A stretch of 5,356 bases of DNA from Desulfobacteraceae bacterium (GTDB lineage Bacteria > Desulfobacterota > Desulfobacteria > Desulfobacterales > BuS5). Shown here one piece after another: positions 2,848 to 5,356 of this stretch. The stretch covers positions 1-5,356 of the forward strand of contig JAUVKE010000194.1 in the NCBI GenBank assembly GCA_030592105.1. The letters run 5' to 3'. Position numbers and translations under genes: made by a program. Every line of letters starts with the position of its first letter. Positions within the stretch are counted from its first letter, which is position 1. The notes below the pieces were generated by a model. It made no database searches and was not told where the DNA came from. It saw nothing but the letters and a program-made list of their open reading frames with translations.

Positions 2848-3609
2848 ATGGTAAAAATAGGAATTATAGGCGGGTCAGGCTTAGATAATGCTCCCATCCT
2901 TTCAGAATCTGTTGAGATCAAGTGCGATACACCATTTGGAAGCCCTTCCTCGAAACTTGTTGCAGGTAAAATAGCCGGAGTTGATGTTATTATTCTGTCA
3001 AGGCATGGAAAAAAACATCAGCTGAACCCAACACAGGTCAACTACAGGGCCAATATATCAGCCCTTAAGGACCAGGCCGTAACCCATATTATTGCAACAA
3101 CAGCCTGCGGAAGCCTGCGGGAGGAGATAGGAAGGGGCGATCTTGTAATTCTTGACCAATTTATCGATTTTACAAGACACAGGAAAATATCCTTTCATGA
3201 TTCATTTGACAACGGACCTGTTCATATGCCCATGGCTGAACCCTTTGATCCATCCCTGAGAAAAATTCTTTGCAAAAAATCAAAAGAGCTTGGATATAAT
3301 ACCCATGAAAAAGGGACGGTTATAACCATAGAAGGCCCAAGGTTTTCAACCATCGCTGAATCAAACATGTTTAGAATCTGGGGCGCTGATGTTATAAATA
3401 TGTCTGTTGCAACTGAAGCGATTCTTGCCAACGAGGCGGGGATCCCCTACTCGGTTATTGCCATGTCCACAGATTATGATTGCTGGAAAGAAGATGAAGA
3501 TCCTGTTTCCTGGGATGAAATTGTCGAGGTCTTTACACAAAATGCAGATAATGTAATTAATCTTTTAAAAAATGTTATTCCAGAAATTGCTGTCCTTGCA
3601 AAAAAATAA
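2848..3609 (+). CDS. mtnP: S-methyl-5'-thioadenosine phosphorylase
   Basis: Complete protein of 253 residues. It cleaves methylthioadenosine with phosphate to adenine and 5-methylthioribose-1-phosphate, the first step in recycling the by-product of polyamine and related S-adenosylmethionine reactions, in the cytoplasm. Evidence: N-terminal phosphate-loop GGSG (8-11), SRHGKKH (51-57) followed by NPTQVNYRAN, TTACGSLREEI (84-94), DQFIDFT, MPMAEPF, EGPRFST, NMS (184-186) and TDYDCW with D209 and D211. The last aspartates are the family's 6-aminopurine recognition residues; purine nucleoside phosphorylases acting on guanosine/inosine carry Asn there, so adenine specificity is expected. The ATG has AAGGGAA at 2836-2842 with good spacing. 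One difference: where many relatives have a proline in the NMxxxPE motif this protein has T189 (NMSVATE). Some archaeal relatives also use 5'-deoxyadenosine, which would matter in an anaerobe rich in radical-SAM enzymes. It looks monocistronic, with an inverted-repeat-rich region after it. Confidence 0.95.
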   Translation: MVKIGIIGGSGLDNAPILSESVEIKCDTPFGSPSSKLVAGKIAGVDVIILSRHGKKHQLNPTQVNYRANISALKDQAVTHIIATTACGSLREEIGRGDLVILDQFIDFTRHRKISFHDSFDNGPVHMPMAEPFDPSLRKILCKKSKELGYNTHEKGTVITIEGPRFSTIAESNMFRIWGADVINMSVATEAILANEAGIPYSVIAMSTDYDCWKEDEDPVSWDEIVEVFTQNADNVINLLKNVIPEIAVLAKK

Positions 3610-3645: not shown

Positions 3646-3676
3646 GCAACAGGTATAATCTGATTATACCTGTTGC
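3646..3676 (+). terminator. Perfect 14-bp hairpin downstream of mtnP, possible terminator without a T-tract
   Basis: Arms GCAACAGGTATAAT (3646-3659) and ATTATACCTGTTGC (3663-3676) are exact reverse complements around the three-base loop CTG. The hairpin begins 36 bases after the mtnP stop, a usual place for a transcript end. Neither strand has a T-run directly after the stem (+ strand continues TTACATAT), so this is not a classic intrinsic terminator. It may instead stabilise the mRNA 3' end, work with Rho, or be part of the repeat cluster that follows. A second pair, ATTCAGC (3621-3627) and GCTGAAT (3687-3693), encloses it. The symmetry is certain; the terminator role is inferred. Confidence 0.5.
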
Positions 3677-3692
3677 TTACATATCAGCTGAA

Positions 3693-3797
3693 TATAGATT
3701 GCCACATAAATAATTTCACTGCGTTATCGGTCGTCGGAGTATTACAATACGCCTTCCTCCCTCTGGCCTTGTGAAATTAATTATTTAACAATCTATA
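3693..3797. repeat. Inverted-repeat element of about 105 bases, REP/MITE-like
   Basis: The left end 3693-3719 and right end 3771-3797 are imperfect inverted repeats of 27 bases each. The outer nine bases TATAGATTG / CAATCTATA match exactly, the inner eight bases AATTTCAC (3712-3719) / GTGAAATT (3771-3778) match exactly, and a shared TAAATAATT lies between them, shifted by four bases. The 51-base core (3720-3770) is GC-richer than its surroundings, centred on GTATTACAATAC (3739-3750), with purine-rich GGTCGTCGGAG on one side and pyrimidine-rich CTTCCTCCCTC on the other, so it could fold into an imperfect hairpin. There is no open reading frame of note. The form resembles dispersed non-coding palindromic repeats found between genes in many proteobacteria; calling it mobile or multicopy is inference because only one copy is in the window. 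No clear target-site duplication is seen. Confidence 0.55.
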
Positions 3798-3825
3798 GTT
3801 ACCTAATTTTTTTAAATTTTAAGCC

Positions 3826-3839
3826 GGAGAATAAAAATG
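3826..3839 (+). promoter_or_regulatory. Ribosome binding site and start of the RnfB fusion gene
   Basis: GGAG at 3826-3829 lies seven bases before the ATG at 3837-3839. The next in-frame ATG (3858) would remove most of the first part of the membrane helix, and conserved RnfB-type N-terminal length fits the 3837 start (first cluster cysteines then fall at residues 46, 49, 54 and 71, nearly the positions in E. coli RnfB). This decides the start. Confidence 0.75.
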
Positions 3840-5356
3840 ACAGATGCTTTTTTTATAATGGGAGGATTCGGACTGGTTATCGGTGTAGGTTTGGCCATTG
3901 CCTCAAAAATTTTTTATGTATATGTAGACCCTTTGATACTTTCAATTGAAGATGTTCTTCCCGGTGCAAATTGCGGCGGATGCGGCCTTCCAGGCTGCAG
4001 TTCCAATGCAGAAGCGATTGTGGCAGGGACTGCCGCCCCCAATTCATGTGTGGCCGCAGGGGACGACGTTGCAGAGGCCATTGCGGGAATTTTGGGAGTT
4101 ACTGTTGAAGCAAAAGAGCCTGATATTGCAAAACCAGGCTGCACCTACAGTACAGCAGATGCCGAGCTAAAATATATCTATGACGGATTAAATGATTGCA
4201 AGGCTGCTGCACTTTTCAGCGGGGGGATGAAAGTCTGTTCCATCGGCTGCCTCGGCCTTGGAAGTTGTGTAAAAGCCTGCCAGTTCGGTGCCCTTTCCAT
4301 GGGACAGGACGGTCTCCCCATAGTTGATGAAGCACTTTGCACAGGATGCGGGGCCTGTGAAAAAGCCTGTCCCAAAAATATCATAAACCTTTCCTCTGTA
4401 ACAAGACGAATCATGCGGGAGTACACAACCGAAATGTGTACTACTCCCTGCCAGAGATCCTGCCCCGCTGGAATAAATATAAGTGAATATATTCATCAAA
4501 TTGCCATGGGAAATTACCACCAGGCTGTTCAGGTTATCAAAGAACGGAACCCTTTTCCCACAGTTATAGGAAGAATCTGTCCCCGGCCCTGTGAAGATGA
4601 CTGCAGGCGAAAATATGTGGATGACCCTGTGGCTATAAATTTTCTCAAACGATTTGCGGCTGATTTTGAAAAAAGAGAGAATAAAAGGATACTCCCGTAC
4701 AAGGCTCCATCTACAAATCGAAAAATCGCTATTATTGGTGGAGGCGTGGAAGGCCTTTCTGCTGCTTTTTTTGCGGCCAGACTGGGACACGACCCAACAA
4801 TATTTGAGGCGGGCACACACCTTGGGGGATTATTAAGAAGTGCCATAGCAAGATACAGGCTTTCAGATAAAATCCTTGACTGGGATATTGAGGGAATCCT
4901 TGAAATGGGTGTCAAAGCAGAAACAAAAAAAGTTATGGGAAAAGACATTTCTCTGCAATCCCTTTTAAAAGATGATTACGAAGCGGTTTTTACAGCCTCC
5001 GGCGGATGGGACAGCCGTTTGTTAAAAAATTCAAAAGAGACTGCCGGGCCGGTACCAGGGCTTCATCTCCTCATTGATCTCCTTAAAGGGGCTGAAACTG
5101 ATAAATTTCAGTGGGGATCAGACGTTGTAATTGCAGGAGGTGGAAAATCTGCTTTTAAAGCTGCAGGGCTTTGTAAAAACCATGGCGCAAAAAAGGTCTC
5201 CATTATATTCAGGGAAACTAGAGATCAGGTTAAAATAGAAAAATCCGACTTTGAAAACATTGAAAAGGAAGGGATTAAACTTATATTTAACTCGGGAATA
5301 ACCGAAATTACCGGCGAAGAAGACCAGCTTTCATCTTTAGAGTATACCTGTTTAGA
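3837..5356 (+). CDS. rnfB: RnfB fused to a GltD/NfnB-like FAD-NAD(P)H oxidoreductase, 3' partial
   Basis: The frame is open from ATG 3837 to the window edge (506 codons, no stop). Residues 5-28 form one membrane helix, followed by the RnfB iron-sulfur domain ANCGGCGLPGC...C (C46, C49, C54, C71). C102 and C121 follow, then CSIGCLGLGSCVKAC (C134, C138, C144, C148) and a ferredoxin motif CTGCGACEKACP (C168, C171, C174, C178). A normal short RnfB would end near 190. Here the chain continues into the GltD-type N-terminal iron-sulfur domain: CTTPCQRSCP (C201, C205, C209), NPFPTVIGRICPRPCEDDC (C248, C252, C256) and LKRFAADF. Next come the FAD site GGGVEG (301-306) with LGGLLR and YRLSDKILD, and a second dinucleotide site AGGGKSAFKAA (433-443). 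RnfB carries electrons from ferredoxin in the ion-pumping Rnf complex; GltD/NfnB proteins pass electrons between NAD(P)H, FAD and Fe-S clusters. The fusion could link both at the membrane (inference). By comparison with GltD, about 140 or more residues remain beyond the window. No other rnf gene is visible upstream, so this is either an orphan or the first gene of a cluster continuing to the right. Confidence 0.92.
   Translation, partial: MTDAFFIMGGFGLVIGVGLAIASKIFYVYVDPLILSIEDVLPGANCGGCGLPGCSSNAEAIVAGTAAPNSCVAAGDDVAEAIAGILGVTVEAKEPDIAKPGCTYSTADAELKYIYDGLNDCKAAALFSGGMKVCSIGCLGLGSCVKACQFGALSMGQDGLPIVDEALCTGCGACEKACPKNIINLSSVTRRIMREYTTEMCTTPCQRSCPAGINISEYIHQIAMGNYHQAVQVIKERNPFPTVIGRICPRPCEDDCRRKYVDDPVAINFLKRFAADFEKRENKRILPYKAPSTNRKIAIIGGGVEGLSAAFFAARLGHDPTIFEAGTHLGGLLRSAIARYRLSDKILDWDIEGILEMGVKAETKKVMGKDISLQSLLKDDYEAVFTASGGWDSRLLKNSKETAGPVPGLHLLIDLLKGAETDKFQWGSDVVIAGGGKSAFKAAGLCKNHGAKKVSIIFRETRDQVKIEKSDFENIEKEGIKLIFNSGITEITGEEDQLSSLEYTCL

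Follow-up and report, generated by a model that had tools for sequence, protein, structure and literature searches.

The window, i.e., the whole stretch of 5,356 nucleotides analyzed here, ends inside a gene encoding a fusion between RnfB and a GltD-type protein (positions 3837 to 5354). The frame starts with an ATG located 7 bases after a GGAG motif, runs for 506 codons without interruption, and leaves the window, so that the 3' end of the gene lies beyond it. The single uninterrupted frame described in an earlier note on this DNA is thus present, and the same frame was found in many genomes. The gene upstream is mtnP, encoding S-methyl-5'-thioadenosine phosphorylase (2848 to 3609). Positions 1 to 2705 are occupied by two adjacent chelatase-like open reading frames, the first an AAA+ protein with a VWA domain and the second an AAA+ ChlI-like protein, both of which match TIGR02442 best, under its cut-off. 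The fusion, its domains, and mtnP are all on the forward strand.

The encoded protein starts with a single N-terminal hydrophobic, presumably membrane, helix, identified by eye (around residues 4 to 28, positions 3846 to 3920). The other domains were delimited using Pfam and alignments. The RnfB half contains the four-cysteine Fe-S domain PF04060 (residues 41-72, positions 3957 to 4052, with Cys46, Cys49, Cys54, and Cys71) and ferredoxin-like motifs (Cys134, 138, 144, 148, 168, 171, 174, and 178, positions 4236 to 4385; Pfam Fer4 motifs at residues 138-183). The GltD half opens with the Fer4_20 entry domain (residues 201-281, positions 4437 to 4679, with Cys201, 205, 209, 248, 252, and 256), followed by the GxGxxG loop of FAD type (IAIIGGGVEGLS, positions 4725 to 4760) and by a second Rossmann-like fold (positions 5124 to 5225). 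Pfam reports Pyr_redox_2 at residues 296-498 and Pyr_redox at residues 430-502 of this half. Among proteins of known structure, residues 7-192 match RnfB (7zc6) and the RnfB of a Na+-translocating ferredoxin:NAD+ oxidoreductase (9eri), the alignment with RnfB starting at residue 7, and residues 199-496, approximately, match GltD/NfnB-type proteins. The domain order and the membrane helix of the earlier note are therefore upheld. The closest relative, P0001 (673 aa, encoded on a 29-kb contig), shares 97% identity with the part of the protein inside the window and extends around 170 residues past the window end, finishing with the cysteine motif RCLQCGLIC. Ordinary GltD proteins carry a similar cysteine motif ahead of their entry domain.

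The RnfB-GltD fusion is genuine and is widely found among sulfate-reducing bacteria. Among the 120 best of 4753 matches (7998 candidates scored), 118 are 654 to 713 aa long, 63-97% identical to the fusion of the window; the remaining two, P0033 and P0048, have only 535 and 546 aa, respectively. We then surveyed 291 genomes of the order, which we took as Desulfobacterales, and found a fusion in 224 of them (E <= 1e-100). These are of two types, one resembling the gene of the window (window type) and one resembling the fusions of rnf operons (rnf type). The window type was listed in 150 rows (E <= 5.2e-200); adding three genomes with best E-values of 4e-193 to 6e-188, and dropping an ambiguous one at 5.8e-165, it is counted in 153 genomes. 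The rnf type is present in 183 genomes (E <= 1e-190). Both types co-occur in 114 genomes, while 39 have only the window type and 69 only the rnf type, some of these genomes being plainly partial. In a wider sample of the phylum, 36 of 395 genomes have a match at E <= 1e-160.

Fusions of this architecture have been described before. The available text on the Rnf2 complex reports an RnfB of around 700 aa with NAD-binding sites, an RnfC devoid of NADH-type domains, and occurrences of the large RnfB in Desulfobacula toluolica, Desulfococcus multivorans, and Desulfobacterium autotrophicum, and it states that the mode of action of Rnf2 still awaits experiment (PMC5109826). Rnf2 is also cited, in the part available of another study, as a component of the core genome of Desulfobacteraceae (PMC11887813). 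The genome G001 (1.6 Mb) includes a public contig (L001, Desulfobacteraceae bacterium isolate CSMAG_3012) that is 91-95% identical to the window in mtnP and in the first part of the fusion. On C34, this genome encodes rnfE and rnfA together with a plain RnfB that is divided between two frames. On C58, it encodes a class III cytochrome c followed by rnfC-D-G-E-A and a large fused RnfB, its RnfC scoring under the rnfC cut-off; this arrangement fits the published Rnf2. The gene of the window is a third kind of RnfB-like protein, 42% identical to the C58 fusion. It resembles the large RnfB of Rnf2 in joining an RnfB half and an NAD-binding-type half in one chain of around 700 aa, the full length being known from relatives, and the rnf-type genes of our survey share with the window type both the domain order and the C-terminal cysteine motif. 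In contrast, the RnfB of Rnf2 is part of an rnf cluster and the rnf-type genes keep an NADP(H) signature, whereas the window type forms a separate clade with neither.

We aligned 80 window-type and 78 rnf-type proteins, each set chosen from 120 listed. Both types have the GltD cysteines (205, 209, 248, 252, 256, 660, 663, and 667) and the FAD glycines. All 80 window-type proteins have Cys46, Cys49, Cys54, Cys71, the ferredoxin cysteines, the three glycines of GxGxxG, and E324, and each GltD cysteine is kept in 79 or 80 of them. Cys201 is present in 80/80 of them and is mostly replaced by alanine in the rnf type, and the acidic residue of the FAD fold is always a glutamate, whereas it is a glutamate in 58 and an aspartate in 20 of the rnf type. 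The D of the FAD motif GD is found at its column in only 71 of the 80 window-type proteins, and the copy of the window itself lies past the window end. The NADP(H) motifs differ between the two types. In the rnf type, the three glycines, the N, and the A of GGGN(S/T)A are present in 78/78 proteins and YRRT..EMPAN hardly varies. Of the window-type proteins, 65/80 retain the third glycine and 62/80 the A, whereas asparagine does not rank among the four most frequent residues at the site of the N; at the YRRT site, Y is changed to F in 61/80 and the second R to E in 68/80, the first R being kept in 76/80. The protein of the window has GGGKSA and FRETRD in these places, and other members drift further from the NADP(H) motifs. 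It thus has the FAD loop and the entry-domain cysteines of NfnB/GltD proteins and lacks their NADPH motif, GGGN(S/T)A with YRRT. Since the FAD glycines and the cysteines are kept and the two NADP(H) motifs lost, the window type likely binds FAD and is unlikely to bind NADP(H). The second nucleotide-binding fold of the earlier note exists, but without its NADP(H) signature, and the second NAD(P)H site it proposed for the complex is unlikely, as the motifs are invariant at nearly every position in the rnf type and lost in most of the window type. The GltD-like subunits NfnB and StnC (available text for Stn: PMC7483475) are similar in having Fer4_20 and an FAD fold; the window type differs from them by the lost NADP(H) motif and the gain of a membrane RnfB half.

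In a midpoint-rooted tree of the fusions, the window type forms one clade (108 leaves, support 0.961) and the rnf type of the order another (29 leaves, support 0.995). Among 20 loci sampled elsewhere in the phylum, we found nine degenerate fusions, each following rnfA in an rnfCDGEA operon. The window type has six of these as its sister group (support 0.999), a value that drops to 0.816 once the remaining three are included. Such sister proteins being members of rnf operons, the window-type subfamily probably began as a subunit of Rnf whose gene moved out of the operon in this order. Canonical and degenerate fusions were each found both inside and outside rnf operons. Five genomes of the wider phylum sample have two matches to the fusion (G306, G458, G481, G563, and G610), and the four sampled, all except G458, have one canonical and one degenerate copy. 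Two fusions outside rnf operons, L239 and L240, have intact NADP(H) motifs, and the former is near dsrM and a DsrK-like gene (by eye). A degenerate orphan fusion, L227, lies near a gene for formate-tetrahydrofolate ligase and one for a long HdrA-like protein (also by eye).

We studied the genetic neighborhood of the window type in 60 loci (L129-L188) of 8-14 kb. This sample is not random, since it consists mostly of contigs with several kb on each side of the fusion, and L188 was picked because it looked odd. The neighbors were counted with tblastn; the picking of open reading frames had missed 4 of the 60 fusions beneath long antisense frames. None of the 60 loci encodes rnfA, rnfC, rnfD, rnfE, or rnfG within these 8-14 kb, and there is no sign of an rnf operon downstream of the fusion in these relatives. 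By comparison, rnfA adjoins 25 of 29 rnf-type loci, for which the flanks were only 1.5 kb. With mtnP upstream of it and, to judge from these relatives, no rnf genes downstream, the gene of the window differs from the large RnfB of Rnf2, which is encoded next to rnfA in an rnf operon.

Other neighbors recur. A gene for an RseC-like membrane protein lies downstream on the same strand in 47 of the 60 loci and NuoF is encoded immediately upstream in 32, leaving 13 and 28 loci, respectively, without them. NuoE was found in 31 loci and DRTGG in 34; representatives of these neighbors were named NuoE/HoxE-like, NuoF, RseC_MucC, and DRTGG. One NuoF adjacent to a fusion aligns end to end with HydB of bifurcating hydrogenases, and the 37 full-length adjacent copies all have the N-terminal 2Fe-2S and the C-terminal double 4Fe-4S motifs that, according to the text available, distinguish BfuB from plain NuoF (PMC9304861). 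Of 48 fusion-adjacent NuoF sequences, two of which duplicate a gene that has a second locus identifier, 47 group in a single 53-leaf clade (support 0.94), and only that of L153 falls outside. The six further leaves are four extra copies of the same genes, the NuoF of L132, where the fusion had been missed by the picking of reading frames, and one from G117, where the fusion is located elsewhere in the genome. In many relatives, the fusion occupies the place of BfuA/HydA in the gene order.

These loci recall the Bfu family (HydABC, Stn/Nfn-Bfu, and Type 4 Rub-Bfu), because BfuB- and BfuC-like genes lie upstream of the fusion in around half of the sampled relatives. Another link is that the closest match of the GltD half among known structures is a NfnA of 963 aa whose partner, NfnB, is BfuB-like. 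They differ from this family in having RnfB-GltD in the place of BfuA, and P0001 has no 2Fe-2S ferredoxin domain in Pfam. The nearest Bfu type is Type 4, which, according to the available text, has no BfuA and often leaves the identity of the third partner unclear (PMC9304861). The window-type fusion may be the missing third partner of some of these enzymes that lack BfuA. Nucleoside-salvage genes are frequent beside the module, with a purine nucleoside phosphorylase in 32/60 loci (also, e.g., L094, L096, and L135) and an amidohydrolase (labelled MtaD; Amidohydro_1) in 29/60; the lineage of the window has mtnP in that place. In L066 and L188, the gene just before the degenerate fusion encodes a GltD-like protein with YRRTRNEMPAD. 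Two other loci, L237 and L242, looked like BfuBC genes beside an Rnf operon and were discarded: the next operon, seen in L247 (G515), includes a NuoG/molybdopterin-type gene of its own with a NuoE domain fused to it, and therefore says little about the fusion.

The arrangement is different in G002-G004, the other genomes searched from the group of G001 and the lineage of the window. In G002 and G003, the order is mtnP-apt-fusion, followed by a reversed potassium-channel gene, and G004 has all of this distributed over two contigs; in the window, no apt separates mtnP from the fusion. G002 is near-complete, with one contig of 4.07 of around 4.2 Mb. At E <= 1e-120 neither G002 nor G004 encodes a BfuB-like protein, G001 and G003 have only distant ones (50-51%), and RseC is encoded away from the fusion in G002, G003, and G004. 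Since G002 has the fusion and no BfuB-like protein, the Bfu-like module is not obligatory. The link to confurcation raised in the earlier note would take a different form, in the BfuB/BfuC-like genes that neighbor many relatives; for the lineage of the window it is not demonstrable.

Among the 150 listed window-type rows, 11 (L071, L076, and L082-L090) have a single in-frame TGA, or 11 of the 147 that cover the codon, as three begin after it. In 11/11 cases it replaces the first cysteine codon of GAN(C/U)GGCG, the four-cysteine motif of RnfB. The 11 genes form one clade (support 0.997, pairwise identity 62-88%) and do not represent 11 independent events. In nine of them, the frame continues past the TGA and stays aligned up to the usual end; it stops at the contig end in G200 and is shorter in G152 (635 aa). 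All 11 genes have a SECIS-like hairpin with GCUGC/GCAGC arms and a CGGG(U/G)U loop 12-27 nt 3' of the UGA. Although this definition was drawn after inspecting the UGA sequences, the strict hairpin occurs in only 1 of 145 distinct pieces with a cysteine codon (all fetched loci of both fusion types plus the window), while 5 of the 145 pair at all five positions and 26 at four. Synonymous codons are more conserved over the next 14 positions than elsewhere in the UGA genes (0.80 vs 0.62, permutation p 5e-5), whereas 11 cysteine-encoding relatives, hand-picked from the tree, show no such difference (0.595 vs 0.588, p 0.47). The hairpin count and this test, which do separate the two groups, were made after a test of folding energy on 45-nt pieces, which gave no separation between the 11 UGA genes (z from -1.82 to +0.08) and 17 cysteine-encoding ones (-1.84 to +1.06). 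Rfam reported no SECIS family in the 11 loci at E <= 5. Nine of the 11 UGA genomes, all except G078 and G118, have SelB above the cut-off, as do 8 of the 9 genomes without the UGA in that search, so it does not discriminate between them. These loci have the usual neighbors, with NuoF upstream in 10/11 (not L090) and RseC downstream in 10/11 (not L089, at a contig end).

From these sequence patterns, the fusions of the UGA clade probably carry a selenocysteine at an Fe-S ligand cysteine. If so, this clade would be a natural case of a Sec-ligated Fe-S cluster at the membrane entry point. The window has TGC in this position (3972 to 3974), hence Cys46, and is not a UxxC protein. Selenocysteine in Rnf-type proteins is not a new idea, since the texts available list a UxxC member of PRK07118 "Fe-S cluster domain-containing protein" among predicted selenoproteins (ABC78902.1; PMC9312934, Table 1) and an RnfC selenoprotein family (PMC5029168). 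The RnfB-type UxxC of the former fits the UGA position of the 11 relatives; unlike them, it is a single table row, with no mention there of a fusion, gene neighbors, or a ligand role. In the available portions of the selenoprotein and RnfB literature, we found no fusion-borne selenocysteine, nor its single clade or its hairpin. More broadly, neither the orphan subfamily nor the UGA form appeared in the available texts on RnfB fusions, GltD, Desulfobacteraceae, Bfu/NuoF, and selenoproteins. The in-frame TGA of an rnf-type gene in G036 was rejected as a selenocysteine codon because it is not at a cysteine, and the rnf-type row of G186 has an in-frame TAA.

What could be the role of such a protein? 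Our preferred reading, to which we give about an even chance of being right, is that the gene of the window encodes an orphan protein, paralogous to the large RnfB of the Rnf2 complex, that would act as a membrane-anchored Fe-S/FAD electron conduit without a pyridine-nucleotide site of its own. The GltD half would take electrons from a soluble partner, and these would pass through the FAD and the Fe-S chain, the four-cysteine cluster, and the RnfB half to a membrane acceptor, or in the reverse direction. In around half of the sampled relatives, the partner would probably be the NADH/ferredoxin module of BfuB/BfuC type encoded next to the fusion; the fusion would then replace BfuA, and RseC would be its membrane neighbor. 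The lineage of the window appears to lack this module. There, the obvious candidate would be the RnfA/E core of either Rnf2 or Rnf1, given that in other orders the sister proteins serve as the rnfB of rnf operons. We infer these partnerships from gene order only. A widespread second large RnfB without NADP(H) signature, frequently next to a bifurcation-type core and in one clade with a probable selenocysteine at a cluster ligand, would be a testable candidate for NADH/ferredoxin electron exchange with the membrane.

More tentatively, an electron-bifurcating BfuBC core could, in this order, have adopted RnfB-GltD where BfuA would otherwise stand, and so form with RseC a confurcating NADH/ferredoxin complex anchored in the membrane, in which one clade would have a Sec-ligated entry cluster in RnfB and from which the lineage of the window would have kept the subunit and lost the core. 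It is also conceivable, if rather doubtful, that the orphan replaces the plain or large RnfB of Rnf1/Rnf2 and thereby alters the electron input. The position of the sister degenerate fusions in other orders and the two additional RnfB-encoding rnf loci of G001 fit such an exchange, as does the presence of the rnf type in 114 of the 153 window-type genomes (Fisher p 2e-5, uncorrected for kinship and incomplete genomes). However, 39 of the 153 have no rnf-type fusion at E <= 1e-190, a count in which many genomes look incomplete and operons with a plain RnfB are not included, and no rnf gene adjoins any of the 60 loci.

Two further explanations bear on the GltD half. It is unlikely to be a pseudo-enzyme serving in structure or partner docking, with electron transfer left to the RnfB half. 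The loss of the NADP(H) motifs, the replacement of GGGPAGL by GGG(V/A)EGL, and the change of GGD to PVD, DVD, or EGD in some members would agree with this, but the invariance of GxGxxG and E324 and the near-invariance of the GltD cysteines are unexpected for a cofactor-free domain. Quite improbable is the model of the earlier note, in which an Rnf complex would contain a membrane NAD(P)H:ferredoxin junction whose NfnB-type pyridine-nucleotide site is functional; the domain architecture and the motifs kept by the rnf-operon paralogues could be invoked for it, and the lost signature of the window type and the lack of rnf genes nearby speak against it. The joining of two genes by assembly error, for which we found no argument, although the window does end inside the gene, is negligible given the lengths of 118 of the 120 best relatives and the recurrence of the fusion in separate genomes, sometimes on contigs of several Mb.

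The DNA between mtnP and the fusion has two repeats. A perfect inverted repeat of 15 nt just 3' of mtnP (3646 to 3676) is perhaps its terminator. It is followed by an element of around 125 bp with imperfect inverted arms of 37 nt (3683 to 3807), which L001 lacks in the corresponding place. With up to 3 mismatches allowed, 118 copies of a 37-nt piece of this element were counted in G002, against 0 for the reversed control, and the element is a member of a dispersed MITE/REP-like family.
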